DNA from: Algoriphagus boseongensis
Lineage (GTDB): Bacteria; Bacteroidota; Bacteroidia; Cytophagales; Cyclobacteriaceae
DNA length: 64,000 bases
Direction: 5' to 3'
NCBI RefSeq assembly: GCF_004362805.1
Contig: NZ_SNYF01000006.1
Span: 1-64,000, forward strand
A program made the position numbers and the translations under genes. Of this stretch, positions 41,883 through 50,213 are shown piece after piece. The notes beneath the pieces are model-generated. The model ran no database searches. It had not been told where the DNA came from and worked only from the letters and a program-made list of their open reading frames with translations. Position 1 is the first letter of the stretch. Each line of letters begins with the position of its first letter.

Positions 41883-41917
41883 AAAAGCCAGCTCAAGAAA
41901 TTGGGCTGGCTTTTTTT
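41883..41917. terminator. Terminator between converging genes
   Basis: AGCCAGC (41886-41892) pairs with GCTGGCT (41905-41911), with an A-run before and T7 after. It serves the amidohydrolase gene and possibly also the tspO transcript. Confidence 0.88.
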
Positions 41918-42380
41918 AGTTCAAATACCAAATGGCAAAATTCAATGCCGTGGCAAAAGAGACCCAGAATAGGTAGGGAACCATCAGGATTGACGCCCAT
42001 TTATTGACTTTCCTGAATTGGAAAATGCAAAGTAAAATCATCACCCAAAGGGGAATGATGACTACCAATCCCAAAATTGGACTCTCCATTCCAAAAAAAG
42101 CTGGAGACCAAAGTGCATTTAAAACTAACTGGATAAAATAAAGTGTCAACAACTGCTTTTTCTGAGGATGCTCACTTTTCCAAATCAAATAGCAGGCAAT
42201 CCCCATTAAAATATAAAGGAGAGTCCAAACGGGTCCGAAAAGCCAATTAGGAGGATTCCAGCTCGGACGATTGATGGTTAAATACCAAGATTGAACTGAA
42301 GTAATGGTAAAAATTGCTCCTAATCCTCCAGCAAGTTGAGGAAGTGCCAGGCTGATTAGTAATTTGACAATTTTAGACAT
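41916..42380 (-). CDS. tspO: TspO/MBR family protein
   Basis: 154 residues, five membrane segments, Trp-rich as in the family: SWYLTINRPSWNPPNWLFGP, VLNALWSPAFF and ATALNFAIWYLN. TspO binds porphyrins and affects tetrapyrrole and oxidative stress handling; in photosynthetic bacteria it links to pigment control. It sits beside the carotenoid genes, but on the other strand. It forms a pair with the DUF4286 gene (1 bp apart). Confidence 0.93.
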   Translation of the reverse strand: MSKIVKLLISLALPQLAGGLGAIFTITSVQSWYLTINRPSWNPPNWLFGPVWTLLYILMGIACYLIWKSEHPQKKQLLTLYFIQLVLNALWSPAFFGMESPILGLVVIIPLWVMILLCIFQFRKVNKWASILMVPYLFWVSFATALNFAIWYLN

Positions 42381-42381
42381 A

Positions 42382-42684
42382 TCAAATGGTCTCTAAAAGT
42401 GTCCGAAAAGCTACTGCTTTATCCTTATACCTTTCTTGAGTTTTTGACCTTAGCAGTACTGCATGTCTTTTCTCATATTCCATCATTTTTTCGATACTCT
42501 CAGTAAAGTATTGAATACAATAATTGGTAGACCCATCTTCTGAATCATGAAGGAGTCTAAAAAATTTATGGTCATGGAATATTCCAGTCTCCAAAACTTC
42601 AGGAATATGGATGCTTTTCATCCAGGAAATAAAATCCTCCTCAATATCAGGAGTAACGTTTATGGTAATATTATATAGAATCAT
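42382..42684 (-). CDS. DUF4286 family protein
   Basis: 100 residues. MILYNITINVTPDIEEDFISW and QYFTESIEKMMEYE fit DUF4286, a ferredoxin-like (dimeric alpha-beta barrel) small protein of unknown role common in Bacteroidetes. First gene of a two-gene unit with tspO. Confidence 0.85.
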   Translation of the reverse strand: MILYNITINVTPDIEEDFISWMKSIHIPEVLETGIFHDHKFFRLLHDSEDGSTNYCIQYFTESIEKMMEYEKRHAVLLRSKTQERYKDKAVAFRTLLETI

Positions 42685-42781
42685 GGGAAGTGAATTGGGT
42701 TTTATTTACTTTTTTTGCCAACAATACTAAGTGAGACAAAGTTAGAAATCCCTAAATGAATCTCCTTCTATTCCTTTAAAT

Positions 42782-43447
42782 ATGCATAAAGTAGTTCCTA
42801 GCAATGGAGAACCTAAATTTTCGAGGGCTTTAATCGGCAAAATAATTATCGTTGCTATTCATTTGGTGGGCTTGTTTGGACTGAGTTTCGAAGAATTTAG
42901 ACCCCTTTTCCAGGATCTCACACCCGCTCAACTTTTACTTTCTCTATTTCTTATTTTGTTTTTTCATAAAGGATGGAATGATGCATTTCCAATTTTTGCT
43001 GCAGCGGCCTTTTGGCTCGGATTCGGAAGCGAGTTAATTGGAATTCATACCGGATACCTTTATGGTGATTATGTCTACGGACCTGTTTTAGGACCAAAAC
43101 TCTGGGAAGTCCCAATTGTAATTGGGGTCAATTGGTTTATCCTTAGCTATTTGACCGGATCAGTTTTTCATAAAGTTCCGAACGATTGGTATGCGGCTTT
43201 CTTGGGTGCTTCAGCCATGACTGCCCTGGACTATATTTTAGAGCCCGTGGCTGTTTATCTTGATTTCTGGGCTTGGAAATGGGACGAAATCCCATGGAGT
43301 AATTACATCAGTTGGTTTGGAGTAGCTTTCTTAATTCATTTGATCTGGAGAAAAGCCAACTTTGAAAAGTCCAACCCCATAGCTTTGTTTTTATTGATTA
43401 CTTGGATCATTTTCTTCACCTTGCTCAACTTTACCTTGGATATCTAG
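42782..43447 (+). CDS. cruF: CruF-like carotenoid 1',2'-hydratase (DUF422)
   Basis: 221 residues with about seven membrane segments. GSELIGIHTGYLYGDYVYGP, then DYILEPVA and a carotenoid biosynthesis protein layout match the CruF/DUF422 family, which adds water to the acyclic psi end of carotenoids to form a 1'-hydroxy group. This fits monocyclic pigments (flexixanthin, myxol type). Its place at the head of the carotenoid genes supports the call. The reaction is assigned by family, not proven. Confidence 0.82.
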   Translation: MHKVVPSNGEPKFSRALIGKIIIVAIHLVGLFGLSFEEFRPLFQDLTPAQLLLSLFLILFFHKGWNDAFPIFAAAAFWLGFGSELIGIHTGYLYGDYVYGPVLGPKLWEVPIVIGVNWFILSYLTGSVFHKVPNDWYAAFLGASAMTALDYILEPVAVYLDFWAWKWDEIPWSNYISWFGVAFLIHLIWRKANFEKSNPIALFLLITWIIFFTLLNFTLDI

Positions 43448-43539: not shown

Positions 43540-43986
43540 ATGGTAAAGGCAATTGGATTTACAATTCTCGGTTTTGCACTTATGGAATTTTCCGGTTGGT
43601 TTATTCATAAATACCTCATGCACGGCCCGCTGTGGATGATCCACAAAACCCATCACCAGCCTTCCAAATCCTTTTTTGAACTGAACGACCTTTTTTCAGT
43701 TCTATTTGGTGGAATCGCAGTAACCTTATTATTTCTGGGAATAGAAGGATTAGATTACAGGTTTTGGATAGGAACAGGGATTAGCATTTACGGCATGTTG
43801 TACTTTTTTCTTCATGATGTTTTGGTGCATAGAAGATTAAAATGGTTTGACAGGCCGAAAAGCTTTTTCTTAAAAGGAATATTTAAAGCCCATCAGGCAC
43901 ATCATAAAACCAATCAGAAGGACGATGCTGTATCCTTCGGCTTGTTTGTAGTACCAAGGAGATATTTTAAAGACGGAGAAAAGTGA
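43540..43986 (+). CDS. crtZ: Beta-carotene 3-hydroxylase
   Basis: 148 residues. Di-iron membrane hydroxylase with His motifs HKYLMH, HKTHH, HDVLVHRR and HQAHH. CrtZ introduces the 3-hydroxyl on beta rings (zeaxanthin, astaxanthin or the cyclic end of flexixanthin). Its stop overlaps the GTG start of the next gene by 3 bp, so translation is coupled to the photoregulator gene. Confidence 0.9.
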   Translation: MVKAIGFTILGFALMEFSGWFIHKYLMHGPLWMIHKTHHQPSKSFFELNDLFSVLFGGIAVTLLFLGIEGLDYRFWIGTGISIYGMLYFFLHDVLVHRRLKWFDRPKSFFLKGIFKAHQAHHKTNQKDDAVSFGLFVVPRRYFKDGEK

Positions 43987-44879
43987 GCAACTACTCGATT
44001 AAAGATTTAGAGCAACTGTCAGGAATCAAGGCCCATACCCTTAGGATATGGGAACAGCGGTATAATCTGCTGTCTCCTAAAAGGACAGATACCAACATCC
44101 GCTACTACGATGACAGTGACTTAAGGCTGATTCTCAATGTCGCATTGTTGAATGACAATGGATATAAAATAAGTAAGATAGCTTCCATGGATGATGTCAC
44201 ACTTCGTGAGGAAGTGATGAAGCTGTCTGAAAGATCTTTTGCCTACAATGATCAGATTCATGCACTTACCTTGAGCATGATCGAAATGGACGAGGAGAGA
44301 TTTGAAAAAATTCTCAATTCCAACATCAAAAAACTTGGCTTTGAGCAAACGATGCTCAATATTATTTATCCATTCATGGGAAAGATTGGCGTTTTGTGGC
44401 AAACTGGCGCGATCAATCCAGGCCAAGAGCATTTCATTTCCAATTTGGTCAGACAAAAAATGATCGTTGCAATTGATAGCCAAACGACAAAATCGACCGG
44501 GAAGAAGTTTTTGCTATACCTTCCAGATGGAGAATTGCACGAAATTTCTCTTCTGTTTGCCTATTATCTGATCAAGTCCAAAGGTCACAAGGTTCTCTAC
44601 TTGGGACAAAGCACCCCTACTGAAGATTTGAATTACGTATGTCAGGTGCACAAGCCTGACTACATTTTGACTGTTCTTACCACAGCTCCTATTTTGGAGG
44701 AGGTAGAATCTTATGTCAATTCCATTGCAGATCGTTTTTCCTATTCAAAAATCTTGGTAACTGGTCACCAGGTGCTGAGCCAAGAATTTTCTTTTGCCTC
44801 TAATGTTCAGCAGCTGAACTACATCCGAGACATTCATGGCCTCTTGGAGGAAATCGAATCGGTTCCTCAGGAAAAATAG
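43983..44879 (+). CDS. MerR/B12 photoreceptor regulator, CarH/LitR type
   Basis: 298 residues from GTG. N-terminal MerR HTH (YSIKDLEQLSGIKAHTLRIW). The adenosylcobalamin-binding part has the diagnostic W-x9-EH motif (Trp139, Glu149, His150) and His186 in GELHEIS as the likely lower cobalt ligand. CarH/LitR proteins bind DNA as tetramers in the dark with AdoB12 and are released by light. The start overlaps crtZ, and the ECF sigma plus carotenoid genes follow. The probable operator is at 45026-45059. Confidence 0.9.
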   Translation: MSNYSIKDLEQLSGIKAHTLRIWEQRYNLLSPKRTDTNIRYYDDSDLRLILNVALLNDNGYKISKIASMDDVTLREEVMKLSERSFAYNDQIHALTLSMIEMDEERFEKILNSNIKKLGFEQTMLNIIYPFMGKIGVLWQTGAINPGQEHFISNLVRQKMIVAIDSQTTKSTGKKFLLYLPDGELHEISLLFAYYLIKSKGHKVLYLGQSTPTEDLNYVCQVHKPDYILTVLTTAPILEEVESYVNSIADRFSYSKILVTGHQVLSQEFSFASNVQQLNYIRDIHGLLEEIESVPQEK

Positions 44880-44915
44880 AATTCCCAATACTTAGTTGTT
44901 CCAGCCTTATTGGCT

Positions 44916-44967
44916 AAGCCCCTTTTTCCACTCTTCCATTTATTGGAGTTGAAAAAGGGGCTTTTTT
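44916..44967 (+). terminator. Terminator after the photoregulator gene
   Basis: AAGCCCCTTTTTC (44916-44928) pairs with GAAAAAGGGGCTT (44951-44963), with extended T-tract. It separates the crtZ/regulator transcript from the sigma/crt transcript. Confidence 0.88.
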
Positions 44968-45013
44968 GACCTTTGATAATTTTTGTTTAAGAAAAGGAAA
45001 AAAAAATTCAACA

Positions 45014-45059
45014 AAACTCTTTGAGTTTGTTTAATCTTTCCTAATTTTGATTAAACAAA
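45014..45059 (+). promoter_or_regulatory. Promoter with 11-bp inverted repeat before the ECF sigma gene
   Basis: TTG (45021-45023), an 18-bp spacer and TAATTTTG (45042-45049) match the Bacteroidetes TTG/TAnnTTTG promoter. An inverted repeat with 11-bp arms (TTTGTTTAATC at 45026-45036, GATTAAACAAA at 45049-45059) and a 12-bp spacer brackets the -7 element. A second repeat, AAACTC-TTT-GAGTTT (45014-45028), covers the -33. It is the obvious candidate site of the CarH/LitR-type repressor encoded upstream. Confidence 0.7.
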
Positions 45060-45072
45060 AATCAGGGCTACC

Positions 45073-45585
45073 ATGACAACTCTAGAATTCAGCTATTCGC
45101 TTAATAAGCTCTCCAGCTCCCTGAAGCCTTTTGCATTGAAGCTCACTCGTGACATCGACGATGCAAATGACCTGATTCAGGACACAATGGTTAAAGCTTT
45201 TACCAACAAAGACAAATTCACAGAAGGAACCAACCTAAAAGCTTGGCTCTATACTATCATGAAAAATACTTTTATCACCAACTACCAAAGAATGGTGAGA
45301 AGAGGAACTTTCGTAGATACTACTGATAATCTACATTATATCAACTCTAGCTCAGTGCAGATTGAAAATGGTGTATTTGAAAACTTCACCATGGACGATG
45401 CTCATGAGGCTATCGAAAAATTGGATGATGCCTATAAAACACCTTTTATGATGCATTACCGAGGATTCAAATACCACGAAATTGCAGATAGACTACAAAT
45501 CCCGATTGGAACTGTGAAAAATAGAATTCATATTGCTAGAAAGCTTCTCAAAGAAGCCTTGATGGTCTATCAACATAAAAATTAA
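45073..45585 (+). CDS. ECF-type RNA polymerase sigma factor
   Basis: 170 residues. Sigma2 region (RDIDDANDLIQDTMVKAF, NLKAWLYTIMKN) and sigma4 HTH (FKYHEIADRLQIPIGTVKNR). No anti-sigma gene is adjacent. In Streptomyces LitR represses the ECF gene litS, which switches on the crt genes; the order regulator-sigma-crtI here is the same, so it is likely the light-induced activator of carotenogenesis (inference by analogy). It is followed by crtI after only 4 bp. Confidence 0.9.
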   Translation: MTTLEFSYSLNKLSSSLKPFALKLTRDIDDANDLIQDTMVKAFTNKDKFTEGTNLKAWLYTIMKNTFITNYQRMVRRGTFVDTTDNLHYINSSSVQIENGVFENFTMDDAHEAIEKLDDAYKTPFMMHYRGFKYHEIADRLQIPIGTVKNRIHIARKLLKEALMVYQHKN

Positions 45586-45589
45586 TTCC

Positions 45590-47086
45590 ATGTCCAAAAA
45601 GAATGTGGTTGTAATCGGATCCGGTTTTGCCGGATTGTCCGCAGCCACCCATTTGGCTCAAGATACTAGTTGTTCAGTCACCCTTTTAGAGAAAAATGAT
45701 TCCCCTGGTGGAAGAGCGAGAAAGTTCGAACATCAGGGTTTCATTTTTGATATGGGTCCAAGCTGGTATTGGATGCCTGATGTTTTTGAGGAGTATTTTG
45801 CCCATTTCGGCAAAAAACCAAGTGATTATTACGATTTAATCCGATTGGATCCTTCCTATGCGGTTATCTATGGGGAAAAGGAAAAATTGGATATTCCGGC
45901 CGATTTGAATGCTTTCAAAGCAATGCTGGATGAAATAGAGCCTGGTGCCGGGAAAAACCTTGATGAATTTTTAGCACAGGCAAAATATAAATACGAAGTC
46001 GGCATTCATGATTTAGTAAAGAAGCCTAGCCGCTCTATTTTTGAGTTTACTTCCCCAGGATTATTGGTGGATATGGTACGCATGGATATTTTCCAATCCA
46101 TGTCCAAACACGTCAAGAAATATTTCTCGGACGAAAAAATCGTCCGTCTGATGGAATTTCCTGTTCTTTTTCTGGGAGAAACTGCTGAAAATATCCCTGC
46201 TCTTTACAGCCTGATGAATTATGCAGATATCGCCTTGGGTACTTGGTACCCAATGAACGGAATGCATGAAATCATCAAAGGAATGGTTCAACTGGCAGAA
46301 GAAAAAGGGGTGAAAATTCAGTATTCGGCTGAAGTGGAAGAAATTGAGGTAGAAAACGGACAAGCGAAGACAATCCGCCTTGTATCAGGTGAGAGAATCT
46401 CAGCAGATATTGTTGTTACGGGGGCAGATTATCATCATGTAGATAAACATTTGCTGAATCCTAAATACAGTAATTATTCTGATGAATACTGGGATTCACG
46501 AGTTATGGCTCCTTCCAGCCTTTTGTTTTACCTGGGGGTTGACAAAAAACTCAAAAATTTGAGGCACCATAATTTGTTCTTTGATGAACCTCTTGGTCCA
46601 CATGCAGACGCCATTTATAGAAATCCAAGATGGCCGGAAAAACCTCTCTTCTATGCCTCTGTACCTTCATTGACTGATCCGACGGTGGCGCCGGAAGGAA
46701 TGGAAAATGTATTCCTTCTCGTTCCTTTAGCTCCAGATTTGGAAGATTCTGAAGAAATGAGAGAGAAATACTACCACATCATCATGGACAGGCTAGAGAA
46801 AATAACCGGGCAGGAAATCCGATCCCATGTCATTTTCAAAAGATCTTATGCGCATAGTGATTTCAAAAGTGATTACCATGCTTTCAAAGGAAATGCCTAT
46901 GGTTTGGCTAATACCCTGATGCAAACTGCCATTCTCAAACCTAGTTTGAAAAACAAAAAGGTGAAAAACCTGTATTATACTGGTCAGCTCACTGTTCCAG
47001 GTCCAGGAGTACCTCCTTCACTTATTTCTGGGGGTGTGGTGGCTAACGAAATTATAAAGGATTATAATTTGCCAAGATTAAACTAA
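45590..47086 (+). CDS. crtI: Phytoene desaturase
   Basis: 498 residues. N-terminal FAD fold VVVIGSGFAGLSAATHLAQ and C-terminal GQLTVPGPGVPPSLISGG, both typical of CrtI. It converts phytoene to lycopene through repeated desaturations. There is no second desaturase (CrtD) in this window. Directly after the sigma gene and 9 bp before crtB. Confidence 0.94.
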   Translation: MSKKNVVVIGSGFAGLSAATHLAQDTSCSVTLLEKNDSPGGRARKFEHQGFIFDMGPSWYWMPDVFEEYFAHFGKKPSDYYDLIRLDPSYAVIYGEKEKLDIPADLNAFKAMLDEIEPGAGKNLDEFLAQAKYKYEVGIHDLVKKPSRSIFEFTSPGLLVDMVRMDIFQSMSKHVKKYFSDEKIVRLMEFPVLFLGETAENIPALYSLMNYADIALGTWYPMNGMHEIIKGMVQLAEEKGVKIQYSAEVEEIEVENGQAKTIRLVSGERISADIVVTGADYHHVDKHLLNPKYSNYSDEYWDSRVMAPSSLLFYLGVDKKLKNLRHHNLFFDEPLGPHADAIYRNPRWPEKPLFYASVPSLTDPTVAPEGMENVFLLVPLAPDLEDSEEMREKYYHIIMDRLEKITGQEIRSHVIFKRSYAHSDFKSDYHAFKGNAYGLANTLMQTAILKPSLKNKKVKNLYYTGQLTVPGPGVPPSLISGGVVANEIIKDYNLPRLN

Positions 47087-47095
47087 CTTAATAGC

Positions 47096-47938
47096 ATGGA
47101 TGCAATCGAATTATTCGACCAAACCACCTTTGAGTGTAGCAAGTTGATTACACATCGATACAGCACTAGCTTTACGTTGGGGATCAAAACTTTGGACAAA
47201 AAATTCCATTTGCCCATCTACGCGATTTATGGTTTTGTGAGATATGCCGACGAAATAGTTGACACCTTTCACGACAAGGATAAAAAAACGCTATTGGAGC
47301 GTTTTAAGGCAGAAACTTATCAGGCGATAGAGGAAAAAATTTCTTTGAATCCTGTCCTGCATGCATTCCAGCTCATTGTTAATAAATACAATATTTCGAA
47401 AGATCTGATCGAAGCCTTTCTTCATAGCATGGAGATGGACCTCGATTTCAAGATTTACAATGATTCCAAGTATCACGAATACATTTATGGCTCTGCCGAA
47501 GTAGTAGGACTGATGTGTTTGAAGGTTTTTTGTGAAGGGAATGAGGCTCAATATGAAAGCCTGAGAGAACCAGCTTGTAAGCTAGGGGCTGCTTTCCAGA
47601 AAGTTAATTTCCTGAGAGACTTGAAAAGTGACTTTGAAGAACGAGGAAGAGTTTATTTCCCGGGAGTAGATTTCAACCAATTTGACAAGTCTGCTAAATT
47701 GCTCATTGAGGAAGATATCCAGAAAGACTTTGATGATTCTTTAATTGGGATTGAAAGATTGCCTTCAGGAGCAAAACTAGGAGTAAAAGTCGCCTATCTC
47801 TACTATCAAAAGTTGTTTGATAAAATCAAGGGTCTATCCCCTGAAACCATTACCCAAAAAAGGGTGAGAATTCCGAATACCCAAAAAATTTCCCTTTTGG
47901 TGGGAACCTATTTTGAAAACAAATTAGGGCTTCTTTGA
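47096..47938 (+). CDS. crtB: Phytoene synthase
   Basis: 280 residues. Squalene/phytoene synthase fold with two Asp-rich motifs: DEIVDTFHD and NFLRDLKSDFEERGRVYFP. It condenses two geranylgeranyl diphosphates to phytoene. The stop overlaps the lycopene cyclase start by 1 nt (TGATG), so the two are translationally coupled. Confidence 0.94.
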   Translation: MDAIELFDQTTFECSKLITHRYSTSFTLGIKTLDKKFHLPIYAIYGFVRYADEIVDTFHDKDKKTLLERFKAETYQAIEEKISLNPVLHAFQLIVNKYNISKDLIEAFLHSMEMDLDFKIYNDSKYHEYIYGSAEVVGLMCLKVFCEGNEAQYESLREPACKLGAAFQKVNFLRDLKSDFEERGRVYFPGVDFNQFDKSAKLLIEEDIQKDFDDSLIGIERLPSGAKLGVKVAYLYYQKLFDKIKGLSPETITQKRVRIPNTQKISLLVGTYFENKLGLL

Positions 47939-48648
47939 TGGAAAAATACCTCTATCTGGCGGTTAATCTATTTGCTTTGTCTTATCCCTTGGCTCAGTCG
48001 TTTGAGCATAGGATTAGGTTTGCTTCCAATTGGTATGCTCTTTTTCCGGCCATTCTACTAACAGGGACTTTCTTTGTGGTGTGGGATATATGGTTCACTT
48101 ACCTTGGAGTTTGGGAATTTAATCCCCGATATATTCTTGGGATTTACCTCTTCAACCTACCATTGGAAGAATTGCTGTTTTTTGTATTTATCCCTTTTGC
48201 CTGCGTCTTTATTTATGAAGTTCTGATTTACTTTTTCCCAAAAGACCATTTCAAACCTTTAGGAAAGCCCGTGGTTTTTGTCTTGGTTCCATTCTTATTG
48301 ATTTTTGGATTGATGAACCTGGACAAATGGTACACCTCCGTAAATTTTATATTAGGAGGATTGACTTTATTGGTTCATTACTTGATTTTCAAGGACAAAT
48401 ATTTGGGAAGATTCATATTTGCTTACCTGGTTCATTTGATTCCCCTTTTCTTGTGCAATGGAATTTTAACAGGAGGAGTTACCGATGAACCGGTAGTCAT
48501 TTATAACAATACCGAAAACCTCGGAATCCGAATCTGGACTGTTCCTATCGAAGACACAGTCTATTCATTGATCCTTTTCTTAATGAATGTCAGTATCTTC
48601 GAAAAGATCCGAAGCAAAAAAACAATTGACACACTAGTCAGTTATTAG
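47938..48648 (+). CDS. crtY: Lycopene cyclase, CrtYcd-type fused
   Basis: 236 residues, about seven membrane segments. It carries the PLEELLFF and PIEDTVYS motifs of the heterodimeric-type cyclases, one from each half, so it is a CrtYc-CrtYd fusion. TTG at 47935 would add one residue, but the ATG overlapping the crtB stop is the better start. It may act on one or both ends of lycopene; the CruF-like gene suggests that one end stays acyclic. Confidence 0.85.
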   Translation: MEKYLYLAVNLFALSYPLAQSFEHRIRFASNWYALFPAILLTGTFFVVWDIWFTYLGVWEFNPRYILGIYLFNLPLEELLFFVFIPFACVFIYEVLIYFFPKDHFKPLGKPVVFVLVPFLLIFGLMNLDKWYTSVNFILGGLTLLVHYLIFKDKYLGRFIFAYLVHLIPLFLCNGILTGGVTDEPVVIYNNTENLGIRIWTVPIEDTVYSLILFLMNVSIFEKIRSKKTIDTLVSY

Positions 48649-48652
48649 AAAA

Positions 48653-49498
48653 ATGAAAAATCTCCAAGTACATATAGACAATCATTCCGGATTTTGCTTT
48701 GGGGTAGTCTATGCCATCGAAATGGCTGAAGAAATACTCGATCAGCAAGGATATCTGTATTGCTTAGGAGATATTGTCCATAACGATGAAGAAGTCAATA
48801 GACTGACTAAAAAAGGACTTAAAATCATTGACCATGCGGAGCTGCATAATCTTCGCGATGAAAAAGTCCTCATTCGTGCTCATGGAGAACCACCTTCTAC
48901 CTACGAGCTGTCAATCAAGAACAACCTTACGTTGATTGATGCATCTTGCCCAGTAGTGCTAAAGCTTCAAAACCGAATCAAAAATTCTTTTGACAAGGAC
49001 GAGAGCATCTACATCTATGGCAAGCATGGACATGCAGAGGTTATAGGCCTCTTGGGTCAAACAAACAACAAAGCAGTTGTTTTTCAGGACATTTCAGAAT
49101 TAGACTTAGAAACCTTGCCAAAAAACCTGACCCTATACAGTCAGACTACCAAAAGCACGGATAAATTCTATGAAATCAATTCTATTCTTACAGAAAATGG
49201 AATTACAGTAAATACAAATGACACGATTTGCAGGCAAGTGTCAAACCGCGATAAGGAACTTAGAGAGTTTGCAGATAAGTTTGACAAAATCGTCTTTGTG
49301 AGCGGAACAAAGTCGTCCAATGGCAAGGTCCTTTACAATGTCTGCAAAGAAAGAAACCCAAACACCTTCTTCGTTTCTAATCCAGATCAAATCGAACAAG
49401 GCTGGTTTTTGGAAAATGAAACTGTAGGAATCTGTGGAGCTACCTCCACTCCGATGTGGCTCATGGAGCAAGTCAGAGAAAGAATTCTTACCTTTTAA
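48653..49498 (+). CDS. ispH: 4-hydroxy-3-methylbut-2-enyl diphosphate reductase
   Basis: 281 residues. The three cysteine ligands of the [4Fe-4S] cluster are at 15, 99 and 193 (GFCFGV, DASCPVV, TICRQV); KHGHAEV holds the active-site region. It makes IPP and DMAPP in the last step of the MEP pathway and so supplies precursors for carotenoids. Placing it between crtY and crtW ties isoprenoid flux to pigment synthesis. Confidence 0.95.
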   Translation: MKNLQVHIDNHSGFCFGVVYAIEMAEEILDQQGYLYCLGDIVHNDEEVNRLTKKGLKIIDHAELHNLRDEKVLIRAHGEPPSTYELSIKNNLTLIDASCPVVLKLQNRIKNSFDKDESIYIYGKHGHAEVIGLLGQTNNKAVVFQDISELDLETLPKNLTLYSQTTKSTDKFYEINSILTENGITVNTNDTICRQVSNRDKELREFADKFDKIVFVSGTKSSNGKVLYNVCKERNPNTFFVSNPDQIEQGWFLENETVGICGATSTPMWLMEQVRERILTF

Positions 49499-49499
49499 C

Positions 49500-50213
49500 A
49501 TGCCTAAAATTTCTCAAGTGAAATCTATTGATCCGAAAGGGTTAATTGTCGGTTGGACTATTATTCTGACTTGGGCAATTCTATTGATTTCACTTTTAAA
49601 CTGGGAATTCAGCTGGTCAAATCCCTTGGTGTATTTAGCCATTCTCGCCCAAACACACCTCTACACCGGTCTATTTATTACCGCGCATGATGCCATGCAT
49701 GGGGTGGTATCCTCCAATAAAAAAATCAACCATCTCACAGGTTGGATCGCTGCCATTTTATTTTCATACAACTTCTATTGGAAGCTTTTTCCTAAGCACC
49801 ACGAGCATCATCGATATGTAGCCACGGATAAGGATCCTGACTATCACCCTTCAGGAAAGTTCTGGATTTGGTATTTGAGTTTCATCCGCCAATACGTCAA
49901 TCTTTGGCAGATCTTGCTTATGGCTATCACTTTCAACCTATTGAAACTGATTATTCCAACAGAAAACCTCATCATTTTCTGGATGCTGCCGGCAGTATTA
50001 TCCACATTCCAACTCTTCTATTTCGGAACTTATCTTCCTCACATGGGAGAAATTCAAAACGAGCATCATTCCCATACTCAATCTGAAAATCACCTTTGGG
50101 CATTCATTTCCTGCTATTTTTTCGGTTATCACTTTGAGCACCACGATTCACCAGGCACACCTTGGTGGAGATTGTGGCAGGTCAAAGAAGAAAAGAGATC
50201 AATTCTTTCTTGA
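49500..50213 (+). CDS. crtW: Beta-carotene ketolase
   Basis: 237 residues. The frame is open from 49434 inside ispH; the ATG at 49500, 1 nt after the ispH stop, is the sensible start. Di-iron membrane oxygenase: TAHDAMHG, HHEHHR, GTYLPHMG and HFEHHDSPGTPWWRLW are CrtW motifs. It adds the 4-keto group on beta rings; with CrtZ it gives 3-hydroxy-4-keto ends, as in astaxanthin or flexixanthin. Last gene of the cluster. Confidence 0.92.
   Translation: MPKISQVKSIDPKGLIVGWTIILTWAILLISLLNWEFSWSNPLVYLAILAQTHLYTGLFITAHDAMHGVVSSNKKINHLTGWIAAILFSYNFYWKLFPKHHEHHRYVATDKDPDYHPSGKFWIWYLSFIRQYVNLWQILLMAITFNLLKLIIPTENLIIFWMLPAVLSTFQLFYFGTYLPHMGEIQNEHHSHTQSENHLWAFISCYFFGYHFEHHDSPGTPWWRLWQVKEEKRSILS

Follow-up and report, generated by a model that had tools for sequence, protein, structure and literature searches.

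The first 64,000 nucleotides of contig NZ_SNYF01000006.1 of Algoriphagus boseongensis (the window) contain a carotenoid gene cluster in which litR, encoding a MerR-type regulator of the LitR/CarH family, is followed by an extracytoplasmic function (ECF) sigma factor gene and a closely packed series of carotenoid (crt) genes. The comparative sequence data presented here indicate that LitR is probably a B12-based, light-responsive repressor of the sigma-crt promoter, with the sigma factor possibly acting in a loop on cruF-crtZ-litR and with a wider predicted LitR regulon in relatives. The evidence that carries this proposal is a conserved operator of inverted half-sites that overlaps the sigma promoter.

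An Inverted-pair Operator Overlaps the Sigma Promoter

The initial annotation of this DNA had described a CarH/LitR protein with a W-x9-EH motif and His186, an ECF sigma gene after it, and a TTG/TAnnTTTG promoter with an 11-bp inverted repeat around the -7 box and a 6-bp repeat over the -33 element. Both genes and the longer repeat were confirmed. The perfect 11-bp repeat, TTTGTTTAATC / GATTAAACAAA, occupies positions 45026-45036 and 45049-45059, with a 12-bp loop, and lies about the -7 box of a promoter of the form TTG/TAnnTTTG, which we take to be the Bacteroidetes promoter consensus (Table 1). The 6-bp repeat (AAACTC/GAGTTT, 45014-45019 and 45023-45028) is present, but no matching conservation was seen when the aligned relatives were judged by eye, without counting. 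The 11-bp repeat is one half of the full predicted operator, which consists of two inverted TGTnnA-N18-TnnACA pairs placed 44 bp apart. The upstream pair, and an intrinsic terminator that precedes the operator, are additions to the initial annotation.

Shuffling of the AT-rich 108-bp stretch produced a perfect repeat of at least 11 bp, with a loop of 3-30, in 25 of 1000 trials. On its own, the 11-bp repeat is weak evidence for an operator, and it is conservation in relatives that makes the case strong. Searches of the organism's own genome with up to three mismatches gave 57 operator matches and 94 for a reversed control; given that the control outnumbered the matches at this setting, only sites with zero or one mismatch were used, of which there were three for the operator and none for the control.

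Conservation of the Operator in Relatives

The sigma locus was compared across 75 loci (L004-L078), a non-random sample that comprised 50 loci from the genus search, in which 56 genomes matched, and 25 further loci among the best matches of the family search. The order litR then sigma was found in 74 of the 75 (the exception being L078), and crtI was seen in 72. The last half-site, anchored at the -7 box, was located in 72 of the 74 loci with a sigma gene (all but L049 and L053). In these 72 loci, the other half-sites (TGTnnA or TnnACA) occur in a near-fixed register: 70 loci have half-site B at a distance of 24 bp, 71 have A at 43-45 bp (62 of them at 44 bp) and 69 have D at 67-69 bp. A TTG is found 18-20 bp from TAnnTTTG in 69, with a spacer of 19 in 57, and in family f1 the -7 box of the sigma promoter abuts the last half-site. 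Conservation of the motif in relatives, proposed earlier as a check on the operator, was thus borne out.

A second sample of 60 loci (L129-L188), drawn from part of the phylum match list, provided 90 intergenic regions. Of these, 28 have the inverted pair with an N18 gap and 13 with N19; no other gap between 6 and 30 was seen more than once, and shuffle means did not exceed 0.1. When a looser pattern was applied, a pair was detected close to litR or to the following gene in 33 of the 34 crt-linked loci (the miss being L130) that fall outside a group of 11 loci of another class. The latter (L168-L178; families f17, f33 and f35) have no inverted pair in any locus; direct repeats of TnnACA with an 11-bp period lie upstream of litR in nine of them. 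Such period-11 repeats occur in 12 of the 90 regions compared with 1.4 in shuffles, and both arrangements occur in three of the 33 pair-bearing crt-linked loci (L152, L155 and L167). Given that the inverted pair is found in the class of the window protein and CarH-type direct repeats in the other class, it appears that the half-site was kept while its arrangement changed. In three other-class loci (L175, L176 and L178) a sigma homologue lies nearby on the opposite strand.

The crt-linked loci of family f7 have no sigma gene between litR and crtI. Here, 17 of 18 loci have the pair ahead of litR, and seven have it ahead of crtI as well. In genome G230, sigma and crtI lie apart from litR, yet an exact site accompanies them (L205), and four of seven further sigma homologues not beside litR also have the site (L215, L216, L219 and L220). 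Given that the operator is found near litR-crt in the absence of sigma and, in some lineages, near sigma when litR is unlinked, it would appear to belong to LitR. In L219 and L220 (family f8) the pair lies directly upstream of a sigma homologue with no crt gene beside it in the fetched stretch, which hints at another role for the sigma factor.

Family and Cofactor Signature of LitR

By its domains and motifs the window protein is assigned to the LitR/CarH family and has the full adenosylcobalamin (AdoCbl) light signature. An N-terminal MerR helix-turn-helix (HTH) domain (Pfam MerR_1, PF13411; 3.7e-16) and a four-helix B12-binding_2 domain (PF02607; 1e-11) were detected, and the Thermus CarH sequence from the PDB could be aligned to residues 4-236, into the Rossmann region (5.9e-19, or 1.2e-27 with a 29-sequence profile). 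W139-x9-E149-H150 and H186 are all present. The published signature, as given in the available part of PMC11796333, consists of GxxW, EH, GxxH and GxxxP, which are found in the window protein as GVLW, EH, GELH and GQSTP. Residues G136, W139, E149, H150, E184, H186 and P212 are invariant across an alignment of 29 relatives, a hand-chosen set that excludes all six proteins lacking W-x9-EH.

Among 135 LitR-like proteins, GxxW-x9-EH is present in 129. All four motifs were matched by a strict regular expression in 99, and a further 30 miss GxxH-GxxxP only; in those inspected, GxxH is mostly replaced by a sequence of the ENExH type. Three LitR paralogues (L160, L161 and L164) were observed that have neither the cobalamin signature residues nor, in the fetched stretch, an operator or crt genes. 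The distance between the HTH and the cobalamin motif is 105 residues in Thermus CarH; of 124 proteins, 113 have a distance of 116, and in the 11 other-class proteins it ranges from 117 to 130. One of the 124 values (38) is an obvious mis-match. The organism's own genome encodes a cobalamin adenosyltransferase (1.5e-61) and three further proteins with a B12-binding domain, and B12 dependence of LitR is plausible. The genus search (E 1e-3) detected LitR in 56 of 59 genomes, the family search (1e-20) in 214 of 245 and the phylum search (1e-15) in 90 of 392.

Predicted Regulon in Relatives

In 25 family genomes, searched with at most one mismatch, the operator had 96 matches compared with 12 for the reversed control (forward counts, sigma sites included). 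Loci were retrieved for part of these matches only, and 15 sites away from sigma and litR were inspected. Six precede PTPS-folE-SDR (short-chain dehydrogenase) genes, four a rhodopsin gene with a lycopene cyclase gene, one a photolyase gene (L203) and two a fasciclin gene; the remaining two (L197 and L208) have no evident light gene adjacent. In five loci (L190, L192, L198, L202 and L204) a gene resembling L,D-transpeptidase genes (PF13645, 2e-68 in L192) diverges from PTPS-folE across the site.

Of the 245 family genomes, 78 encode a rhodopsin. LitR is listed for every one of these 78 and for 136 of the other 167 (hand comparison; Fisher 4e-6, ignoring phylogeny). Upstream regions were examined for 70 of 84 rhodopsin matches and the pair was found in 53, with N18 in 51 and N19 in three. 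Every other gap from 12 to 25 occurred at most twice, the shuffle means being 0.1-0.35, and two of the 17 misses (L281 and L290) stop at a contig edge. A second, partially overlapping set comprising the best 80 of 546 relatives in named genomes, of which 79 were usable, gave N18 in 31, N19 in nine (including all three Hymenobacter loci) and any other gap at most once. Genome G154 has three rhodopsin genes (L225, L255 and L267), with the strict pair upstream of one only. No rhodopsin match was obtained in the organism's own genome.

For PTPS-folE, the 30 best-scoring loci were sampled and the start could be located in 26, of which 18 have the pair (N18 in 17, N19 in one, other gaps in none). 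Fasciclin genes have a site at -45/-46 in three of 27 loci (L405, from the organism's own genome, L406 and L412) and at -140 in one more (L429); control gaps of 13 and 17 gave one match each, and fasciclin is at best a minor target. Taken together, the site positions suggest that in relatives an entire sunlight response, comprising pigments, rhodopsin and light protection, is probably switched on by a single LitR sensor.

A Candidate Target of the Sigma Factor

The sequence AACA-N17-GTTA upstream of cruF is a candidate promoter for the ECF sigma factor. It occurs once in the window, where 1.78 matches are expected by chance; given that the chance expectation exceeds the single match, the evidence for a sigma promoter comes from conservation only. 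In 72 upstream regions of cruF (contig-cut loci L032 and L060 removed) AACA-N16-GTTA was found in 61 and the N17 form of the window in four, together 65. With N15 the pair was never found and with N18 it was found once, the shuffle mean being ∼0.3 per gap, and none of the 72 regions has it in the reverse orientation. The primary-type pattern TTG-N17-23-TAnnTTTG is present on the cruF strand in five of the 72, compared with 70 of the 74 sigma promoters (where TTTG or TTTC was allowed). A lone TAnnTTTG is present on the cruF strand in 35 of the 72 (shuffle, 8.4). A LitR pair is absent from all 72.

On the strand of a divergent DUF4286 gene, TTG-N17-23-TAnnTTTG was found in 22 of the 72 regions. 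Given that this gene shares the region, some of the conservation upstream of cruF may serve DUF4286. In the window the gene lies at 42382-42684, and its minus-strand frame was seen upstream of cruF in the nine loci inspected. In other families, AACA-N16/17-GTT was found in three of five regions, a very small set. These patterns suggest that sigma may drive cruF-crtZ-litR, such that the litR operon in this family, which has no LitR pair before cruF, would possibly be fed by sigma instead.

Organization of the Locus

The features of the locus are collected in Table 1. The genes sigma-crtI-crtB-lycopene cyclase-ispH-crtW (45073-50213) are separated by intergenic gaps of at most 9 bp and are predicted to form one operon. 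The name CrtZ is based on protein family and on the cluster, and the start codon of the crtW-like gene was chosen by the analyst. Beyond the DUF4286 gene, a TspO/MBR gene (41916-42380, minus strand; PF03073, 7.7e-54) neighbours the carotenoid cluster.

Table 1. Features of the litR-sigma-crt locus (window coordinates)
Feature	Coordinates	Strand	Basis
Candidate ECF-sigma promoter of cruF-crtZ-litR, AACA-N17-GTTA	42720..42744	+	Conservation; putative target
CruF-like carotenoid biosynthesis protein	42782..43447	+	PF04240 8.5e-25; TIGR03460 below cut-off
CrtZ-like hydroxylase; 4-bp overlap with litR start	43540..43986	+	PF04116 1.8e-12; without NCBIfam match
litR, MerR-type LitR/CarH-family regulator, 298 aa	43983..44879	+	Pfam, CarH alignment, signature residues
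Strong intrinsic terminator between cruF-crtZ-litR and sigma-crt	44916..44963	+	-26.4 kcal/mol, z -4.2
Operator pair 1: TGTTTA (44984-44989), N18, TCAACA (45008-45013)	44984..45013		
Primary-sigma-type promoter: TTG (45021-45023), N18, -7 box TAATTTTG (45042-45049)	45021..45049	+	
Operator pair 2: TGTTTA (45028-45033), N18, TAAACA (45052-45057), within the 11-bp repeat (45026-45059)	45028..45057		
ECF sigma factor, opens predicted crt operon	45073..45585	+	PF04542, PF08281, TIGR02937
crtI, phytoene desaturase (NCBIfam CrtID)	45590..47086	+	NF058655 748 bits, cut-off 640
crtB, phytoene synthase	47096..47938	+	PF00494 8.2e-45; NCBIfam CrtB models below cut-off
CrtYcd-type lycopene cyclase	47935..48648	+	PF18916, TIGR03462
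ispH (LytB)	48653..49498	+	PF02401 5.8e-84
CrtW-like ketolase	49500..50213	+	PF00487; NF045690 227 bits, below cut-off 350

Proposed Mechanism and Alternative Explanations

The arrangement can be accommodated by the following model. In the dark, LitR with bound adenosyl-B12 would sit on the four TnnACA half-sites, masking both the -33 and the -7 element and shutting off sigma-crtI-crtB-lycopene cyclase-ispH-crtW. Light would free LitR from the DNA, such that the ECF sigma factor and the pigment enzymes would be produced together, and sigma would then boost cruF-crtZ-litR, closing the loop. In relatives, the same site would bring rhodopsin, pterin/folE, photolyase and fasciclin genes into the light programme. 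An overlapping set of genes (phrB, folE and a short-chain dehydrogenase gene) is acted on experimentally by LitR of Pseudomonas, according to the available part of PMC9758184. Control of the pigments had earlier been suggested to work through repression of the sigma gene. The conserved operator on the sigma promoter agrees with repression of that gene, but a route to pigments through it is not supported. The close packing of sigma with the crt genes as a single predicted operon speaks against it, since direct control of the crt genes by the operator is then expected and no sigma relay is needed. The f7 loci, moreover, have no sigma between litR and crtI, yet most keep the pair before litR and some before crtI too.

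Several observations weigh against the model. The match of LitR to the Rossmann B12-binding family PF02310 is below cut-off (0.078; 13.3 bits, cut-off 32.1), as is that to the CarH equivalog NF052513 (96 bits, cut-off 400). W-x9-EH is absent from six of the 135 LitR-like proteins; half of these six are crt-linked (L136, L138 with EQ, and L141 with ER). His132, the upper ligand in the light state of Thermus CarH, is replaced by Gln (Q140) in the window protein. Outside the 11 other-class loci, 93 of 124 proteins combine Gln with EH; His occupies the position in one of 129 proteins only, an other-class one. H132A CarH mostly stays tetrameric in light according to the part of PMC10442372 consulted, where an earlier report that differs is cited. 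From these two points it follows that the light output of LitR must differ or that the protein is not a CarH-like switch. An AlphaFold prediction of LitR alone from the single sequence was uninformative (mean pLDDT 43, pTM 0.37). The operator is made of inverted pairs (N18/N19) rather than the tandem 11-bp direct repeats known for CarH (PMC9304148). Under the looser pattern, litR loci with no crt linkage have the pair in five of 15 and lack it in 10, two of the 15 (L139 and L185) being outside the class of the window protein. Finally, the site is absent from three unlinked sigma homologues (L217, L221 and L222) and from the PTPS-folE promoter of the organism's own genome (L297).

The Gln at the His132 position and the weak PF02310 match would also fit a LitR that binds the operator but does not read light via B12 and instead answers to a partner protein or to some other signal. 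Precedents for B12-independent LitR/CarA proteins are described, namely class II LitR with a LOV protein and CarA with CarS (PMC9758184, PMC9304148). This explanation is considered unlikely, in that W139, E149, H150, E184 and H186 are invariant in the chosen 29 sequences, the genome encodes the adenosyltransferase and His132 is not named in the signature as available in PMC11796333. That LitR might act as a MerR-type light activator, instead of or besides repressing in the dark, is prompted by Streptomyces LitR, which is described as doing both (PMC12705666), but seems quite improbable here. The -7 box TAnnTTTG leads directly into the first half-site at 12 of 18 f7 litR promoters, all three f2 sigma promoters and 14 of 53 paired rhodopsin promoters (the remaining 39 have no exact -7 box at the first half-site), and from a site that reaches downstream of the -7 box steric repression is expected. 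The predominant spacer of 19 at the sigma promoters also argues against an activator. Given that the -7 box abuts or runs into half-sites, steric repression in the dark is favoured.

The repeat could instead belong to another regulator and be near litR by happenstance, and 31 of the 245 family genomes have no LitR match at 1e-20. This is very improbable, however, given that the half-site is the TnnACA of CarH, that the site stays with litR-crt whether sigma is present or absent, that other-class relatives have CarH-type direct repeats upstream of litR, and that every rhodopsin-bearing family genome is in the LitR list. A chance palindrome in AT-rich DNA, for which the shuffles yield an equally long repeat now and then, is contradicted by conservation that is specific in position and spacing and can for practical purposes be dismissed. 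We thus infer that LitR itself binds the operator.

Implications

No paper tying LitR/CarH to rhodopsin, or describing an inverted-pair operator in Bacteroidota, and no named regulator of proteorhodopsin light induction was found among the records and passages inspected in a mostly open-access literature. A carotenoid cluster of Algoriphagus was reportedly published by Tao in 2006. Going by their titles, Kimura in 2011 is said to have reported a light-induced transcriptional response linked to growth with proteorhodopsin in a marine flavobacterium, and Riedel in 2010 that another strain expresses proteorhodopsin constitutively. The operator is a concrete candidate for placing pigments, DNA repair, pterin synthesis and rhodopsin under a single B12-type sensor, and offers a case of a regulator family that appears to have retained its half-site while altering operator geometry. 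That the histidine believed to set off the Thermus switch is apparently absent bears on the working of CarH-type optogenetic tools. The broadest form of the proposal, to which roughly even chances are given, is that across Bacteroidota the B12 photoreceptor-repressor LitR jointly controls rhodopsin, carotenoids, photolyase and pterin synthesis via this new inverted operator, which would have taken the place of the tandem repeats found with other CarH proteins. If so, vitamin B12 supply would help to gate light-driven energy capture in Bacteroidota, and LitR would signal light by means other than the bis-histidine switch of Thermus CarH.

Comparison with Known Systems

The initial annotation had likened the layout to litR-litS-crt of Streptomyces coelicolor. 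The likeness holds for gene order, litR, an ECF sigma gene and crt genes being together in both, but not for regulation. In Streptomyces, LitR acts in light as an activator of litS, and crtE is transcribed by way of sigma-LitS (PMC12705666). Here, the crt genes share the predicted operator-controlled operon of the sigma gene; crtI, crtB, the cyclase gene and crtW lie behind a primary-type promoter, and a sigma-dependent promoter is predicted for cruF-crtZ.

Class II LitR of Pseudomonas (PplR1/PmlR2) likewise has paired sites and targets that include photolyase, a folE operon and a short-chain dehydrogenase gene. It differs from the window protein in the sequence and spacing of its site, T(G/A)TACA-N12-TGTA(C/T)A, in being judged unable to bind B12, and in its control by a LOV protein (PMC9758184). 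Chryseobacterium lacus, of the same phylum, also has light-induced carotenoids, and a gene beside its crtB was speculated to act like CarA/LitR (PMC7064467); the available part of that paper describes neither an operator nor a tested regulator.

The closest resemblance is to CarH of Thermus thermophilus and Bacillus megaterium (class I LitR), which has the same MerR HTH and four-helix B12-binding_2 domains and signature motifs, a B12 domain that the window protein probably shares, and the same TnnACA half-site, and which guards carotenoid genes, as is predicted for LitR. LitR of the window differs from CarH in the inverted geometry of its operator, and from the Thermus protein in the Gln that stands in place of His132 and in an HTH that lies 11 residues farther from the cobalamin domain, while the predicted regulon of LitR in relatives is wider than that of CarH.

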